Shown: piece by piece, positions 1,298 to 9,804 of the stretch
Layout: every line of letters begins with the position of its first letter
Numbering within the stretch: position 1 is the stretch's first letter
Program-made: the position numbers and the translations under genes
Notes under the pieces: generated by a model
Told to the model about the DNA's origin: nothing
Database searches by the model: none
Seen by the model: the letters and a program-made list of their open reading frames with translations, nothing else
Virus record (IMG/VR): IMGVR_UViG_3300045825_000202
Location: 1-64,000 of that record
Source of the DNA: a virus
Direction: 5' to 3' (one strand)
DNA: 64,000 bases

Positions 1298-2305
1298 ATG
1301 CCACGTTTCTCTCCCACTCGAAAAGTCTTTACTAGTGTAAGTAAGGATATCAAAGATATTCCATTTCAGGAAGTGTTTGAAATATACAAGGAAGCCCAAC
1401 AGCAGGTATTAGCAGATGCTGAAACCTATGCAGATGAAGTATATCAGACAAAGATTAAAAGACTAGAACAGAACTATAACGATAATAACCCGGAAGAAGG
1501 AGCCTATGAAGGTAACTTTGATGAAGTAGTAAGTAAGCCTAAAGTATCCGTACCTGCTGGTATGATAGAAAAAGCAACAACAGATGCTATCAATGCCGGT
1601 TTTCTAAAAAAGTACGGTATTGAGATACATTCAGATTGGATAATGCCACAAGTCGTAACACTACTAGGGTCGATGCCTACGTATAAGAATAGTAACGGAA
1701 AGTTATCTGGATTACAGTTTAAGCGTAATAACTTTACTAGTGATTGGCTTAAAGGCATCTTTACAATGACAATGATTAGTACTAAAGGTGGCTATCTAAA
1801 GTATATGTACAAATCCCCGGCAAAAGACTATGCCGCACTAACCCCTCTAGTATTATACTCTCAAAAGCTTGTTAAAGGTACATTATACAACGAGTGGGAT
1901 CCAGAGGAGATTGGTCATATTGTACATTCAGAACTTGCTGAGGCTATGTTATATGAAGTACCTGAACTTACTTTAGCTAATATTATTGCTAATCGTACTG
2001 AGGGGTTAACTATTAAATCTGGTGCTTCAAAAGGCGAGGTTAAGAACCCCCTAACCACTTCTAGGTTAACAGGATTATCAAATCCTGACTTTAGACAAAT
2101 ACCCTATCTAGTTCAAATAATGCTAACTCAAATATGGTTAGCGCATCCTGCTAATAGAACAAAGTATATGATCCTAGACCCTAGTAATTGGGATAATAAA
2201 GGGGGCATGCCTGTTCCAATCATTGCGGCAGATGTACTAAGAGGGCCTAATACGGGTACTGCCTCTTCTACATCTAGTAAGCTAGTTACAACAGGACTAT
2301 GGTAG
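1298..2305 (+). CDS. Hypothetical phage protein, 335 aa
   Basis: AAAGGA lies about 8 bases before the ATG. The N-terminal 70 residues look like a charged helical region with a coiled-coil character, followed by a mixed alpha/beta body and a Ser/Thr-rich tail (GTASSTSSK). There is no signal peptide or membrane segment. I do not recognise a family; it could be a structural or early protein. It is the only large rightward gene in the first 12 kb and is transcribed from the promoter at 846 through the structured leader. Confidence 0.75.
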   Translation: MPRFSPTRKVFTSVSKDIKDIPFQEVFEIYKEAQQQVLADAETYADEVYQTKIKRLEQNYNDNNPEEGAYEGNFDEVVSKPKVSVPAGMIEKATTDAINAGFLKKYGIEIHSDWIMPQVVTLLGSMPTYKNSNGKLSGLQFKRNNFTSDWLKGIFTMTMISTKGGYLKYMYKSPAKDYAALTPLVLYSQKLVKGTLYNEWDPEEIGHIVHSELAEAMLYEVPELTLANIIANRTEGLTIKSGASKGEVKNPLTTSRLTGLSNPDFRQIPYLVQIMLTQIWLAHPANRTKYMILDPSNWDNKGGMPVPIIAADVLRGPNTGTASSTSSKLVTTGLW

Positions 2306-2723: not shown

Positions 2724-3071
2724 ATGAAATACTCACACGAGCTGACAACTAGGATTTTGCACTATTACGGCCCTGGGGGTCTTTCGGTGCCTGAAATCGC
2801 TAAGATCCTATCAGACGAATTAGGTGAAACAGTACCAGAACGGTCCCTAATTGCTAAACTTAGTACACTAGGGGTATACGTAAAGAAGCAATATCTTACT
2901 AAACGGGGAGAAATTCCAGTTCGAAAAGAAGAATATCTGCAGAAAATCGCAGATATCTTAGAAATTGACGTAGAAAGTCTAGAAAGCCTCTCAAAAGCTA
3001 ATAAAAACATCTTAATCCTTTTAGCTGGGTTAGTTAAGCCTATTACTAAAGAAATGCTAGAAGCCGAATAA
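2724..3071 (+). CDS. Putative DNA-binding protein, 115 aa, paralogue of the 7.1-kb gene
   Basis: The protein has an N-terminal helical segment resembling a helix-turn-helix (about residues 20-50: SVPEIAKILSDEL then RSLIAKLS). A YVKKxYxTKxG stretch follows, then a C-terminal helical part. The order RSxIAKLS, then YxK..Y.TK.G, then V.KE is shared with the leftward 125-aa gene at 7095-7472, so the two are paralogues. No clear Shine-Dalgarno precedes the ATG. A strong intrinsic terminator follows directly, so this is a monocistronic or last gene. A regulatory role is inference. Confidence 0.7.
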   Translation: MKYSHELTTRILHYYGPGGLSVPEIAKILSDELGETVPERSLIAKLSTLGVYVKKQYLTKRGEIPVRKEEYLQKIADILEIDVESLESLSKANKNILILLAGLVKPITKEMLEAE

Positions 3072-3694: not shown

Positions 3695-3700
3695 TAACGC

Positions 3701-3906
3701 ATACACCAAAGTATATAGAACTGGACAGTCTCTCGATTTATCGTTTGCTCGCTTGGTCCGACCGTGGTAGGTGCTTTAATAGAGTCCTCCTCCTATGTAA
3801 TAGTGATTGTAGTCCTTCGCCTGTACTCTATTTTAGTGAGTCAGGCTAAACGTATTTGTAGTAGAGGATTAGGGTCGCTAAAACCTAGGGTCGGGAAAAT
3901 TTAGTG
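3701..3906 (+). ncRNA. Predicted short RNA or leader with alternative hairpins
   Basis: The stretch downstream of the perfect promoter has no open frame. Two mutually exclusive helices are visible. AATAGAGT (3778-3785) can pair with ACTCTATT (about 3825-3832). The second strand of that stem can instead join a GCCTG-ACTC / GAGT-CAGGC helix ending near 3848. The competing folds resemble a switch, but no known riboswitch core is recognisable. Confidence 0.4.
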
Positions 3907-3935
3907 TTGACTTACGTTTGCAATTGCAGTATAAT
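3907..3935 (+). promoter_or_regulatory. Promoter of the 96-aa gene
   Basis: TTGACT (3907-3912), 17 bases, TATAAT (3930-3935). The predicted start near 3942 rules out the upstream ATG at 3918 as the translation start of the next gene. Confidence 0.85.
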
Positions 3936-3965
3936 ATACATATGCACTTACAAATGGAGAAATAT

Positions 3966-4256
3966 ATGCATAAAAATTTAATAGACGCCGGAGTTAATTT
4001 CCCAGTATGGTGGAACGAAGCATTAGTACTAGAAGCAATTTCCACACTAGATACTTTAGACTTATATGAGTATTTTAATAAGCCAAACGCAACTAGCTTT
4101 ACTAGGTTTATGAAACCGTATTTTCCAAATCGTCCAAGTAATATGCCTTATAGCAGGTACGTGCGTAACCTATTAGCAAATGGTGATGCACTAACTCGCT
4201 CGTTTGGCGCTGCATGCTTATATTATACACCCAATAGGGGGCCTAGTCAAGACTAA
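3966..4256 (+). CDS. Hypothetical protein, 96 aa
   Basis: Three upstream in-frame ATGs exist. The one at 3918 lies inside the promoter and the one at 3942 is at the predicted transcript start. I choose 3966 (MHKNLIDAGV) because GGAG sits 6 bases before it. The protein is rich in aromatic residues (FPVWW, MKPYFPNRP, YSRYVRN) and has no recognised motif. It is expressed alone from its own promoter and is followed by a bidirectional terminator, a pattern seen for small early phage proteins. Function unknown. Confidence 0.65.
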   Translation: MHKNLIDAGVNFPVWWNEALVLEAISTLDTLDLYEYFNKPNATSFTRFMKPYFPNRPSNMPYSRYVRNLLANGDALTRSFGAACLYYTPNRGPSQD

Positions 4257-4357
4257 GTTTCTATAGGTCGCCCTGAGTAAACGCTATTCTGACCCTAGGG
4301 TGCACATATAGATGCTAAAGCATTAACTTGCGTAAATATAGCATAACAGCTAAAACT

Positions 4358-4390
4358 AAAGCCGCTTTGACTATAAATCAAAGCGGCTTT
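4358..4390. terminator. Bidirectional intrinsic terminator
   Basis: A 13-bp perfect stem (4358-4370 with 4378-4390, core AAAGCCGCTTTGA) has a 7-base loop. Rightward it ends the 96-aa gene. Leftward it is followed by a T-rich AGTTTTA and would end the large RNA that comes from about 5446. Confidence 0.8.
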
Positions 4391-4480
4391 CTTGCGGAAC
4401 AAACTTTATAGGCTTGCTAGAACTATTAAGAGCGACCTAATAGTTTTTGGTAGTTCACTCACGACTTTCGTAATGAGTAT

Positions 4481-4542
4481 AGCTAGTGAAATCGAACTTC
4501 ACATTCCTGGTGAAAACCAGATACTTGTATTGTACTATAGCT
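4481..4542 (-). ncRNA. tRNA-like fold near the 3' end of the large RNA
   Basis: Read leftward from 4542: AGCUA, a short D-like segment, a CUGG/CCAG hairpin, a 4-base link, then a T-arm-like hairpin GUGAA-GUUCGAU-UUCAC (4486-4502). The last element, UAGCU at 4481-4485, pairs with the first. The T-arm abuts the closing stem as in a tRNA. The acceptor is only 5 bp, the anticodon arm is abnormal and the length is 62, so it is not a functional tRNA. Confidence 0.35.
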
Positions 4543-4963
4543 GTATTTTAAAAGACTTCTTTGTCTACTAGTAATCCCTTAGTGAGGACGTTTCTACCTG
4601 TTTCGGGTCAGGAATTAGTACAATGCGCTAATTACGCCCATCAAGTTTAACGTCATTGAGAGAAGACGATAGTAGCTAATACAATTTAACCTATCAAGGG
4701 CACTACTAGACCAAATTTAACCACTGGGTCGCGTGGAATGAGATTAACGTCATCATTTTAGACGTCGAATAGCTAGATTTACTTTCCTTTTAAGCTATAC
4801 TTAACATAGCACTATACCCTTAAACTATCGGTATTGAGGTGGCCGATATCAGTAAAGCTGATATACTCCTTTACTATAAGATCAAAACTAGGCGGGTATG
4901 GGAAGACCCGTGCGATTCGGACTAGTCCGAGCAGTTTGCGACTGAGCAATATTACTATTACTC

Positions 4964-5021
4964 CTTATAGTTTCGGCCTTGTTTAGGTAAGGCCTCATCA
5001 GAAGGTAACCTTTACCCTAAG
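4964..5021 (-). ncRNA. Type III hammerhead ribozyme
   Basis: Read leftward: stem III 5' strand CUUAGGGU (5021-5014), H17 = A (5013), and a stem I hairpin AAGG-UUA-CCUU. Then come core CUGAUGA (5001-4995), a perfect 6-bp stem II GGCCUU/AAGGCC with an 8-base loop, core GAA (4974-4972), and the stem III 3' strand ACUAUAAG (one A/G mismatch). All invariant core residues are present, and the cleavage triplet is GUA between 5013 and 5012. Loop I (UUA) can pair with UAA in loop II, consistent with the loop contact that speeds natural hammerheads. Confidence 0.8.
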
Positions 5022-5074
5022 TTGCATAAGTTCGTTAAGTAGGAGAGTACTCAAGCAGAACCAGCTGATGACTA

Positions 5075-5145
5075 TAGGGTTTCGACTATTATTTATGGAT
5101 GAACTAGTTCATCACTATGCGGCAAGTCTCATCAGAAGATTCCGC
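5075..5145 (-). ncRNA. Second hammerhead core (strand I, CUGAUGA, stem II, GAAA)
   Basis: CUGAUGA is at 5135-5129 and GAA at 5083-5081. Stem II begins with GACU (5128-5125) pairing AGUC (5087-5084) and encloses a GAUGAA/UUCAUC hairpin. No local stem I or III partner exists. Both can be supplied by the type III site downstream: ACCCUA (5080-5075) pairs UAGGGU (5019-5014), and GAAUCUU (5142-5136) pairs AAGGUUA (5012-5006) apart from the last position. The result is a type I-like arrangement around the same phosphate. Confidence 0.6.
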
Positions 5146-5452
5146 AGTCACTAGTCACTAGTGACGAAGATGGCCAGTGCTGAGGTTTGTCACTGTTTAA
5201 GGAATTAATTCGCAGCCGGAACTCCTAGCACTGTAGACGTTAGCGCGTTAGCGCAATTCTCTACAACTTAGTGTCCGGTGATATTTAAGCGACCTCATAA
5301 CCACCAAATTAATTAGATTGAGCGCATCGTCAAAACGTTATTACTAAGAATCATCGGTATTGAATCTTATACGCACTTCAAAATACTAGACTAACCTATT
5401 GCCTCCGGGTTACTTAGTGCGTATTGCGGTCGAAGCTAGGGTCTGTCTATCA

Positions 5453-5481
5453 ATTATACACTTTATTAAGCAGAGAATCAA
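5453..5481 (-). promoter_or_regulatory. Leftward promoter 1 of the large RNA
   Basis: On the minus strand TTGATT (5481-5476) and TATAAT (5458-5453) are 17 bases apart. The predicted start is near 5446. Confidence 0.75.
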
Positions 5482-5536
5482 GACAATTTTTTCACTATCA
5501 TATCAGTCAAAACGTTTCTTATATCTCTATGTATCT

Positions 5537-5566
5537 ATTATACACTACGAAGACCTAGCGACGCAA
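5537..5566 (-). promoter_or_regulatory. Leftward promoter 2
   Basis: TTGCGT (5566-5561) and TATAAT (5542-5537) on the minus strand, spacer 18. It lies about 85 bp upstream of leftward promoter 1 and is in the same orientation. Confidence 0.55.
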
Positions 5567-5638
5567 GTGTAAATTTTCATTACTTATTACATAAAATCTT
5601 TCGTATATGGTTATACTACTTTTCTTTTCTGATATATT

Positions 5639-5667
5639 ATTATACGATATTTTAAGATAGAATTCAA
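5639..5667 (-). promoter_or_regulatory. Leftward promoter 3
   Basis: TTGAAT (5667-5662) and TATAAT (5644-5639) on the minus strand, spacer 17. Confidence 0.6.
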
Positions 5668-5741
5668 GTATAAATTCTTGAATGTTACGAGTATTTATAC
5701 TTAGAAACTGAGTTGAACGGGTCTTTTGTTTTCATAAAATA

Positions 5742-5770
5742 ATTATAACAAATTTCAAAATTTTATTCAA
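5742..5770 (-). promoter_or_regulatory. Leftward promoter 4
   Basis: TTGAAT (5770-5765) and TATAAT (5747-5742) on the minus strand, spacer 17. The surrounding 5.46-5.80 kb is very AT-rich with no gene, so an AT-rich unwinding element is an alternative reading. Confidence 0.55.
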
Positions 5771-5890
5771 GTGGTTATTTTCATACTCTCATTAGTACTA
5801 AGTCACGCGGCCCACTAATATGTTTCTAGAAAATTCTATTGACCACTGGCGCTCAAATTGCTAGCAATTTGATAGCATAGGTATACTTAA

Positions 5891-6002
5891 GCGGTTGGTT
5901 ATATAAGCGGTGGATTATATAAGCGGTGGGTTATATAAGCGGTGGATTATATAAGCGGTGGGTTATATAAGCGGTGGGTTGTATAAGCGGTGGGTTATAT
6001 AA
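5891..6002. repeat. Seven tandem 16-bp iterons
   Basis: Seven head-to-tail copies of a unit close to GCGGTGGRTTATATAA are exactly in register. They differ only at the R position, the first copy (GGTTGG) and one G for A. The embedded TTATATAAG is also found twice, again 16 bp apart, at 6197-6221. Iteron arrays bind initiators or repressors. The AT-rich 5.46-5.80 kb next door would fit an origin, but that is inference. Confidence 0.9.
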
Positions 6003-6121
6003 CTTTATAAGCATGTACTGATATTCCAACTTGGCATGCTTGATGCTAAGGCATAAAATGTGCCAAGCCCTAGGGTCGACAGTAAAGCAAGATTCATACC
6101 AAGTATTTATTTTTAGCAAAG

Positions 6122-6150
6122 TTGGCACATCGCACAAATCAGCGTATAAT
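6122..6150 (+). promoter_or_regulatory. Promoter of a short terminated RNA
   Basis: TTGGCA (6122-6127), 17 bases, TATAAT (6145-6150). The predicted start is near 6157. Confidence 0.75.
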
Positions 6151-6156
6151 GAGGTT

Positions 6157-6270
6157 GTGAAAGGCCGAGCAAGGCCGCGCAAAATTTGGCGCTAACTTAT
6201 ATAAGCCTTTGCTTATATAAGTGATAAAAAATAAAACCCGCTGGACAAATAGCATCCAGCGGGTTTATTT
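6157..6270 (+). ncRNA. Small RNA candidate, about 115 nt
   Basis: The transcript would run from the 6122 promoter to the terminator at 6234-6270 with no plausible coding frame. It contains GGCC-GAGCAA-GGCC, a GCGC/GGCGC helix and two copies of the palindrome CTTATATAAG 16 bases apart. That spacing matches the neighbouring iterons, so the RNA or its DNA may be bound by the same factor. Confidence 0.55.
6234..6270. terminator. Bidirectional intrinsic terminator
   Basis: A 12-bp stem (6234-6245 with 6255-6266, core ACCCGCTGGA) is followed by TATTTTTATTT rightward and has an A-rich flank leftward. It sits between the converging small RNA and the leftward 78-aa gene. Confidence 0.88.
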
Positions 6271-6507
6271 TTATTTCAACTCAGCATTAAAGGACAACCC
6301 GTCACATTCTGCCAAATCGCGCATACAGAAAAACGTATAATTTGGCAGGTTAGATGTAACCCATTGCTTACAGTATTCTTCCCAGTCTTTTTCAACCTTA
6401 TCACAATCTTTTTCAAATTGCGGCCAATTAGGAGGACCATTATATTTTTCGTCTTCTTCATTTGGATAAGGCAAGTAGTCGGGTACATCAATTTCAATAT
6501 AAATCAT
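6271..6507 (-). CDS. Small acidic hypothetical protein, 78 aa
   Basis: AGGA precedes the ATG (TTAGGAATAATATG). The protein is acidic and aromatic (DVPDYLPYPNEEDEKYNGPP) with three Cys residues and no known motif. It is the last gene of the leftward cluster and ends at the bidirectional terminator. The overlapping frame at 6276-6497 lacks a start signal and is rejected. Confidence 0.65.
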   Translation of the reverse strand: MIYIEIDVPDYLPYPNEEDEKYNGPPNWPQFEKDCDKVEKDWEEYCKQWVTSNLPNYTFFCMRDLAECDGLSFNAELK

Positions 6508-7614: not shown

Positions 7615-9231
7615 TTAAAGAAAAATAATTTGTCGCTGCCCATTCTGCCAAGTAACGATCGAAGCTAACCGCCACGAACTTGGCCCGATATTATACCCCA
7701 TATCAAGCTCGCAACATCCGGCGGTATAACAGCCGCCTATGATGCTAGGCGAATGAGTGTGGCCTGTGTTCATTTTAACGCCAAGCCCCGCCAGTTGCTG
7801 AGGTGAGCCGCGAGAGCCGTTAGCGCCCGTGTGGCCGTGGCACCCCATCTCAATTCCTGCCAAAATCAATGATTCGTCTGTGCTATGGAAAACGATATTA
7901 TCTTGAATAAGCCCGCCAAATTCACCCACCACATATTCTAGCATATTGAACGGCTCTTTGTACCCAGCATCAATATATTTATATAATTCTAGCATACATT
8001 GAAGATATAAAATAGCATTAGTAGGATCTGCTTTATAATCCTCACTCTTGAGCCATGTATTAATAGCTAGATCGTGGTTAGATTCTATAATGTGCGTCAT
8101 TCGATCATACTCAGCGGATAACTTATATATTACATTAGCTACTTTAATAATATCCTTTTCAACGGTATTGCCTTTAGTATGTTGACCGAACATAAAGGTA
8201 CAATCTTTCACATTATGATGATTCCTACTGCTAAAGTCCATTACATCATGCAAGACAGTATGGTATGGGTTAAATTTCTCCAGATGTTCAACTAACATAT
8301 CTAGGTTATTGCTAGATAATCTTTCTGCGTGAATATCCCCGAACTGTAAAGCAATGGGCCTCTGCCCCGTAATAACTTCATTAGCAGAATAATAGTTACC
8401 CTCGTCATAGAATCCATCACATCCCGGCATAATCTCCAAATGTCTAGCAGTCAGTACCCCATTTTTAACGGATACATACAGTGCACTAATGTTGTGCATA
8501 CTTGCCGCGACAGCACCGGCTTTACGTAATATATAATTACGCCGAGTGATACTACCCGTGCTAAACAACAGTTTCCCTTCACCATTTTTTAGTGCCGCCG
8601 TTGCCTTCAATGTAATTTTACTTGCAGGTATACACACCGACACACCTACAGGTGTAATGCTCTCAAAACCACTTAAAGGACCCTTGGCCGTTGGATTCAC
8701 GTTGGCTTGGCCGATAAAATGTATAACGCCACCTAAACTAATTTGACCCTCTACAATATATTTTACAATGGCAGGATCATAATAAATACCATCAGTAGCA
8801 TCTTGTGCAACCATAAACCCGGCCTTGTTATAGGTCATTTTTGCTACCATAATTATAGCATTATTATGCTCTGCAAAAGTTTCCAATGCACTCAAAGCCA
8901 CCATATCAACATCAGTGTTATTTTGCGCAACCGTTAACACATAGTTTCCCTCAGGATACTCCTGTACGTGTCCAGATGCGCTATCCGTGCCGCTAGACAA
9001 TGGTTTTGCGGCGTCTGACTCGATCTTATCAAAAGCCTTTTTAATTCGGTTTTGTGAGACTTCATGACGACGACTTACTTCAGCCTGCAAGATAACTAAT
9101 ACAGTATATTTATCAGCATTTTCAAATTCTTGTAGTTCAAGCAGTTCACCGAGCAGGACTTCGCGCTTCTCTTCAGACTTTGCACGAAAATAGCCCATAG
9201 TTTGCGCAGTTAAGATAGTTTGCTGTTTCAT
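7615..9231 (-). CDS. Metallophosphoesterase, T5 A1-like candidate, 538 aa
   Basis: Calcineurin-like metal motifs appear in order: GDIH (298-301), D329 in LHDVMD, NHD (385-387), a His cluster GCHGH (463-467) and GHTH (490-493). The first 280 residues are a separate region with a charged helical start. T5-like phages carry a pre-early protein A1 of similar size with a metallophosphatase domain, needed for second-step DNA transfer and host DNA breakdown. The resemblance is by motif order and location in an early-like region, so homology to A1 is inference. It begins with ATG 9231 after CAGGTAAACATT and ends close to the upstream leader of the 125-aa gene. Confidence 0.7.
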   Translation of the reverse strand: MKQQTILTAQTMGYFRAKSEEKREVLLGELLELQEFENADKYTVLVILQAEVSRRHEVSQNRIKKAFDKIESDAAKPLSSGTDSASGHVQEYPEGNYVLTVAQNNTDVDMVALSALETFAEHNNAIIMVAKMTYNKAGFMVAQDATDGIYYDPAIVKYIVEGQISLGGVIHFIGQANVNPTAKGPLSGFESITPVGVSVCIPASKITLKATAALKNGEGKLLFSTGSITRRNYILRKAGAVAASMHNISALYVSVKNGVLTARHLEIMPGCDGFYDEGNYYSANEVITGQRPIALQFGDIHAERLSSNNLDMLVEHLEKFNPYHTVLHDVMDFSSRNHHNVKDCTFMFGQHTKGNTVEKDIIKVANVIYKLSAEYDRMTHIIESNHDLAINTWLKSEDYKADPTNAILYLQCMLELYKYIDAGYKEPFNMLEYVVGEFGGLIQDNIVFHSTDESLILAGIEMGCHGHTGANGSRGSPQQLAGLGVKMNTGHTHSPSIIGGCYTAGCCELDMGYNIGPSSWRLASIVTWQNGQRQIIFL

Positions 9232-9306: not shown

Positions 9307-9804
9307 TTATTTACAAGGAACCCAGACTAATTTCTTACAATTACCGTCAAAGGTCGCCCTATCGCCAAAGATCGCCCAATGGCCAAAGATCGCCCAATTA
9401 CCAAAGGTCGCTTCATCACCAAAGGTCGTCCAATCGCCAAAGATCGCTTCATCACCAAAGGTCGCCCTATCGCCAAAGGTCACCCTATCGCCAAAGATCG
9501 CCCTATCGCCAAAGATCGCCCAATTACCAAAGGTCGCCCTATCGCCAAAGATCGCTTCATCACCAAAGGTCGCCCTATCGCCAAAGATCGCCCAATGGCC
9601 AAAGATCGCCCAATTACCAAAGGTCGCTTCATCACCAAAGGTCGTCCAATCGCCAAAGATCGCTTCATCACCAAAGATCGCCCCCTTGCCAAAGGTCGCC
9701 CTATCGCCAAAATACGAAACTAGGGAATAGTCCCCCATAGGACATTCTCTAACACCATCCACGATAGGTAGGGTATTAAACTCAGCTTGTGTGTATTGTT
9801 TCAT
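9307..9804 (-). CDS. Hexapeptide-repeat protein, 165 aa
   Basis: From about residue 30 to 155 the sequence is a six-residue repeat, A[TI]FG[DN]x, about 20 copies, capped by a non-repeat N-terminus (MKQYTQAEFN...) and C-terminus (KKLVWVPCK). A strict six-residue period with a small hydrophobic pattern suggests a solenoid similar to a left-handed beta helix. Pentapeptide DNA-mimic proteins have a five-residue period, so this is not one. At DNA level an 18-bp minisatellite includes a direct repeat of about 105 bp (near 9355-9465 and 9574-9680), so copy number is likely unstable. Long open frames on the other strand and in another frame are shadows. Confidence 0.75.
   Translation of the reverse strand: MKQYTQAEFNTLPIVDGVRECPMGDYSLVSYFGDRATFGKGAIFGDEAIFGDWTTFGDEATFGNWAIFGHWAIFGDRATFGDEAIFGDRATFGNWAIFGDRAIFGDRVTFGDRATFGDEAIFGDWTTFGDEATFGNWAIFGHWAIFGDRATFDGNCKKLVWVPCK

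Follow-up and report, generated by a model that had tools for sequence, protein, structure and literature searches.

The window analysed here covers the first 64 kb of a virus record of 95,792 bp. The last 254 bases of the record repeat its first 254 (positions 1-254 and 95539-95792) with 99.6% identity. Because the ends overlap in this way, the genome is probably complete and circularly assembled; the record is classed as linear. Its large terminase shares 47% identity with the terminase of T5-like Vibrio phages, and the phage is a distant relative of T5. On the minus strand, a putative long non-coding RNA gene lies close to the A1 DNA-transfer gene and to D5-like regulator genes, and two genes on the plus strand are convergent with it (Table 1). 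The protein encoded at 1298-2305 has no Pfam or PHROG family.

Table 1. Features of the RNA gene and its neighbourhood (window positions; stems are read on the minus strand)
Feature	Position	Strand	Remarks
Syntenic marker protein gene	1298..2305	+	Converges on the RNA; 260 aa in relatives
Convergent gene, DNA-binding family phrog_1725	2724..3071	+	Syntenic marker
Long non-coding RNA gene	4358..5446	-	About 1.1 kb; ends predicted from promoter and terminator
Intrinsic terminator	4358..4390	-	15-pair stem
Degenerate tRNA-like domain	4478..4547	-	GCUA/UAGC closing, middle hairpin, T-arm-like hairpin
AAAGAA hairpin	4553..4566	-	Invariant loop, covarying stem (AGAC/GUCU in the window); 20 distinct sequences including the window
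Type I hammerhead B	4868..5005	-	C3-A9 5001-4995; predicted cut 4872/4871, H17 at 4872
Stems of hammerhead B		-	I 5002-5005/4871-4868; II 4994-4989/4980-4975; III 4971-4964/4880-4873; GAA 4974-4972
Type I hammerhead A	5007..5141	-	C3-A9 5135-5129; predicted cut 5013/5012, H17 at 5013
Stems of hammerhead A		-	I 5136-5141/5012-5007; II 5128-5125/5087-5084; III 5080-5075/5019-5014; GAA 5083-5081
Possible reduced copy of the relatives' 5' three-way junction	5172..5217	-	GGC..CUUAA-[CAGUG..CACUG]-GCC; tentative, by eye against alignment A8
5' three-way junction of relatives, make-up			GGGYG/CRCCC, GUUAU-GAG-hairpin-AUAAC, AACUURAU, then a hairpin such as GGUGAC/GUCACC
Promoter-like site, sigma-70-like	5453..5481	-	TTGATT-17-TATAAT; consensus match only; +1 expected at about 5446
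Two more promoter-like sites, leftward	5770-5742, 5667-5639	-	Consensus matches
T5 A1 homologue, phrog_1745	7615-9231	-

An earlier note on this DNA had described about 1.1 kb free of open frames of 60 codons or more. This was confirmed on both strands of 4257-5930, where the longest frame has 59 aa. The terminator that it had seen was also recovered. Its leftward promoters correspond to consensus matches at three sites, but 15 sites were matched versus 10.1 ± 4.3 in shuffles, so the promoter matches alone are little proof. To judge from these signals, the RNA probably starts near 5446, not at 5770. Pieces similar to the promoter-like sites of 5639-5770 are found again at 76.5, 80.7 and 88.2 kb of the same genome. 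The dense perfect stems of the note are real in the sense that the minimum free energy is below that of the RNA's own shuffles (z = -3.8, 0/60), but the excess over shuffled sequence, -30 kcal/mol, ranks only about eighth among 31 sampled windows of the same phage. Stem density is thus weak evidence and not distinctive by itself. The proposed link to tRNA genes is not seen in the window, which has no tRNA gene (the nearest lies at a distance of about 10 kb when the contig ends are joined), but it returns in relatives, many of which have tRNA-Glu inside the RNA. At least 15 tRNA genes, tRNA-Glu(UUC) among them, lie at 78.2-89.5 kb of G000, distant from the RNA gene.

Two hammerheads in the window

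Over 128 kb of strand, exactly two strong hammerheads, A and B, matched a search pattern made up of CUGANGA, stem II, GAAA, and stems I and III. Both lie in the RNA gene on the same strand, and they abut without sharing bases. The cores reported in the earlier note proved to belong to two complete type I hammerheads, each with the CUGANGA ... GAAA core, three helices and NUH site that define the class and that are also found in the relatives described below. The stem III arms are about 60 nt in A and about 90 nt in B. The contiguous pairs of stems I, II and III sum to 16 in A and 19 in B, both within 140 nt; 3003 dinucleotide-shuffled versions of the whole window, read on both strands, gave a total of 10 sums of at least 16 pairs.

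Rfam matches B only, weakly and as type III (28.7 bits against a threshold of 48.5). We rejected the type III reading because type I pairing with 4880-4873 is far better. The missed gathering threshold lowers the claim that the ribozymes are known to Rfam and not their match to the defining core, the copies being of type I with long stem III arms. A covariance model of the relatives' hammerheads, R1, which was built without the window, found A with E = 2.7e-5 in 761 kb (1.8e-5 in another search) and B with E = 4e-4.

In the fold of the whole RNA, B forms well apart from its short stem I, and its stems II and III have pair probabilities of 0.90-0.98. For A, an alternative fold is favoured over stems I and III by about 9.6 kcal/mol on the local segment under the nearest-neighbour energy model. 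Both A and B hold everything that cutting in cis would need, namely the core, the A15.1-U16.1 pair and GUA or GUC at the predicted site.

Relatives and covarying domains

Alignment of the terminase gave 80 related viral contigs; relatives are designated by L-numbers, which label related viral contigs or loci. The exact pattern CTGATGAG..CGAAAC was present in 5 of 24 full records, and the reversed control pattern in none. At four of the five sites a simple hammerhead lies some 8 kb upstream of the terminase and on the strand opposite to it, the same as in the window. The fifth, in L095, is a hammerhead at the same place that is read with an offset GAAA. A search with the marker protein gave 55 viral contigs with homologues. 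In 39 of them the motif search placed a type I hammerhead at the corresponding syntenic position, and model R1 added L120, L129, L139, L141, L157 and L163, with L167 marginal, giving a total of 45-46 of the 55. The family comprises about 60 environmental phage contigs. In each of the 30 tabulated hammerheads the core is complete, both the A15.1-U16.1 and the C15.2-G16.2 pair are present, and the site is a cleavable GUC or GUA. In most relatives an AAAGCC-type terminator follows about 480-850 nt past the predicted cut; in most members of the L088 group a terminator stands 10 nt or less after it.

L163 carries two hammerheads in tandem, as in the window, with a tRNA-Glu ahead of each there. At 3085-2697 on its minus strand the whole tRNA-Glu and hammerhead unit is duplicated in tandem, the copies being almost identical. 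In L139, L157, L163 and L167 the hammerhead is a variant in which an additional U separates A9 from stem II.

Among cultured phages in the collection searched, no DNA similarity to the RNA and no homologue of the neighbour protein were found. The hammerhead pattern is absent from the T5-like phages My1, 100268_sal2, Lacusarx, 70E35-3, Wyman and Akh-2. One weak model match in Wyman was set aside, as it resembles coding sequence. A hammerhead-based DNA pattern gave three matches in viral contigs, all by chance.

The earlier note had left the covariation of the stems to a comparison of homologues, and the hammerhead, the 5' junction and the tRNA-like domain all covary. For the hammerhead (24 sequences), 90% of cells are paired and the covariation score is 0.392 versus 0.152 for shuffled alignments (0/500), with slid controls at 0.108 or below. 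Stems I, II and III each have compensatory changes. Among the 30 sequences, the third pair of stem II is UA in 12, AU in 10 and CG in 7, and the fourth is CG in 16, GC in 7, UA in 5 and AU in 2. RNAalifold recovers the hammerhead unaided. The covariation score of the 5' domain (19 sequences) is 0.569 versus 0.176 shuffled, and that of the tRNA-like domain, in an alignment which includes the window (A4), is 0.517 versus 0.192.

Most main-group members have the 5' three-way junction upstream of the hammerhead. Scanned over 2.9 million viral contigs, a DNA pattern that describes this domain and includes no hammerhead sequence matched 30. Twenty-five of these have a full hammerhead and four more have the core, at most about 200 nt downstream. 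The same pattern matched once in bacterial genomes, apparently by chance. Alignment of the window with the main group is patchy in the 5' and 3' parts, and in the 5' part only traces match.

In the 3' part of relatives the AAAGAA hairpin is followed by a domain that begins with AAUACAGCUAU; the window has both. The window's copy of the domain was found by the leave-one-out model R3 with 42.8 bits (E = 2.7e-7), the only good match in 135 kb. Because R3 also matches true tRNA-Glu and tRNA-Arg genes of T5-like phages, part of this score is owed to tRNA shape; the family-specific features are the AAUACAGCUAU prefix and the AAAGAA hairpin. We had called the element a three-way junction and renamed it the tRNA-like domain after its model matched real tRNA genes. 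A complete tRNA-Glu(UUC), almost the sole tRNA in the relatives' loci, stands directly 5' of the hammerhead in L062, L131, L132, L134, L141, L147, L163 and several contigs from the motif scan. The majority of members, the window among them, lack a tRNA at this place, yet their covarying hammerhead is intact and the domains on both sides of it are retained. We define the family by a type I hammerhead after a 5' three-way junction, the tRNA-like domain with the AAAGAA hairpin, an AAAGCC-type terminator and the convergent phrog_1725 gene. The window has all of these, its 5' junction being only tentative.

Proposed processing and its alternatives

The dedicated long structured RNA gene with hammerheads that the earlier note had postulated is supported by the homologues in about 60 viral contigs and by their covarying stems. 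The best explanation, with a probability of about 0.8, is that this is a dedicated non-coding RNA gene of a T5-related phage, that it belongs to a modular family of large RNAs new to Rfam, and that the RNA processes itself. Transcription would run leftward from about 5446 to the terminator, and the RNA would fold as independent modules: the 5' part, the hammerhead linker, and the 3' part with the AAAGAA hairpin and the degenerate tRNA-like domain. The 5' product of hammerhead cleavage ends in a 2',3'-cyclic phosphate and the 3' product starts with a 5' hydroxyl. A cut in cis would be expected to leave a 5' module with the cyclic phosphate and a 3' module with the 5' hydroxyl. In the window, cutting at both sites would yield three pieces, of about 434 nt (5'), 141 nt (middle) and about 510 nt (3'). 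In the relatives, a single hammerhead, often right after tRNA-Glu, would part the 5' module (and the tRNA) from the 3' tRNA-like module. The purpose is most likely programmed self-processing, by which one transcript would give two freed structured modules. The recurrence of tRNA-Glu and tRNA-like parts, and the A1 and D5-like regulator genes close by, lead us to guess that the modules are used in host takeover, possibly of translation. A more elaborate possibility, which we consider doubtful, is that of a self-fragmenting RNA machine, in which the two modules reassemble into a multi-part RNA or RNP particle that has tRNA-Glu or a tRNA mimic among its working parts and acts early in infection against host translation or defence. 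In its bolder version the ribozyme would also cut other phage transcripts in trans between the recurrent UUAGGGUC and a following A; this motif matches the ribozyme's own substrate strand.

Two alternatives accept the RNA and give the hammerhead another role. The RNA could be kept whole, with the hammerheads as structural modules or inactive. The alternative folds that compete with hammerhead A and the extra U after A9 in four relatives would fit such an RNA. Hammerheads kept for structure alone, however, could do without the catalytic residues, and the core, both conserved pairs and the GUC or GUA are present in 30 of 30 tabulated instances, which makes this reading unlikely. The RNA could also be a tRNA precursor whose hammerhead serves to process the embedded tRNA-Glu, the tRNA-less members having decayed. 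The position of tRNA-Glu(UUC) next to the hammerhead in several relatives and the tandem tRNA-hammerhead unit in L163 speak for it, and self-cleaving ribozymes tied to phage tRNAs have a precedent in the HDV-like theta ribozymes of gut phages, which were proposed to trim tRNA 3' trailers (PMC10879173). Unlike theta ribozymes, with their HDV-like fold and a cut at the tRNA 3' end, the present ones have a hammerhead core and the type I topology, which cuts 3' of the whole ribozyme. Because the hammerhead would cut beyond itself and is kept, with its covarying stems and flanking domains, in the majority of members, which lack a tRNA, it is not a tRNA 3' trimmer, and we regard a tRNA precursor as quite unlikely.

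Other readings dispense with a dedicated RNA gene. The first-step-transfer region of T5 is non-coding and repeat-rich, and the locus could mainly be a DNA control region of this kind, with stems and repeats for DNA binding or transfer. The A1 and D5-like genes nearby, the tandem repeats upstream of the gene (described below) and the YTAGGGTCR motifs, which are many and lie in both orientations, would suit it. But the stems covary as RNA pairs, G-U changes included, the ribozyme cores are conserved on one strand only, and promoter and terminator are strand-specific; such a control region is very unlikely. Type I and tandem hammerheads are typical of mobile or viroid-like RNAs of the retrozyme, satellite or obelisk type (PMC3088659), of which the locus might be a remnant. 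It occupies a fixed position with the same flanking genes in dozens of phages, it has no ORF, its hammerheads are confined to one strand and the genome has no dispersed copies, which makes such an origin extremely unlikely.

To our knowledge, large phage RNAs are few and their roles mostly unknown. GOLLD and ROOL are homo-oligomeric cages. The earlier note had named GOLLD, ROOL, HEARO and OLE as families to compare. No model of these in Rfam 15 reached its gathering score in the window, none matched at E ≤ 10 in 3700-6400, and none matched in six relatives. Membership in them is rejected on this ground, and the RNA is a new family of large phage RNAs absent from current RNA catalogues, GOLLD-like in part and not a member. 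As far as the available text of the source goes (PMC12286853), GOLLD is a large structured phage RNA of more than 800 nt that sometimes has phage tRNAs in the linker between its 5' and 3' regions, as several members here have tRNA-Glu inside; its sequence and modules are different, and no hammerhead between two parts is mentioned there. ROOL, in the same text, is a large ornate phage RNA often near tRNA genes (PMC12286853). The present RNA resembles both GOLLD and ROOL in size, in being phage-borne and probably in the tRNA link of the relatives; unlike ROOL, it carries hammerheads and has no tRNA within 10 kb in the window genome.

Perreault et al. (2011) described hammerheads that lie between genes of the phages PaP3 and Bcep176, and also tandem ones (PMC3088659). 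The catalytic core and the cleavage rule are identical to those found here, but here the hammerhead is a conserved type I module of a long covarying RNA, with a stem III arm of 54-106 nt. The literature searched, which lay largely outside subscription journals, yielded no description of a long phage RNA that has a conserved hammerhead. The locus adds a large-RNA family that Rfam does not match; its domains covary, its genomic place is fixed, and a hammerhead is built in. The family places bacterial and phage hammerheads in a biological setting of the kind long sought for them, and it can be assayed directly and simply. The tRNA-Glu within the RNA and the tRNA-like domain parallel the linker tRNAs of GOLLD (PMC12286853), which suggests a shared theme.

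Further elements and recurrent motifs

Just upstream of the RNA gene, at 5888-6018, a 16-bp repeat (TAAGCGGTGGGTTATA) stands in seven tandem copies. Farther on, at 9307-9804 of the minus strand, an ORF consists of FGDxAxFGx repeat units, and the opposite strand and another frame are also open at length. L062, L065, L066, L104 and their relatives have a second, shorter conserved element upstream of the RNA with its own promoter (ACAGTCGGGAAGGGCTTAATGAATACC...GACTGTCT), which is probably another structured RNA. Further tRNA-like copies were seen outside the hammerhead RNA in L104 (3632-3559), L066 (2175-2106) and L131 (4231-4160), all on the minus strand; they have no evident D-arm, e.g. AATAGATTA...TAATCTATT. 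The motif GCTACAACYTAGGGTCA recurs both ways round, often between genes, in 1.2-6.1 kb of the window and in L062, L065, L066, L088, L095 and L104. The numerous D5-like HTH proteins may bind it, or the ribozyme may target it in trans. The substrate strand of hammerhead A (GCAACTTAGGGTA) coincides with this motif.
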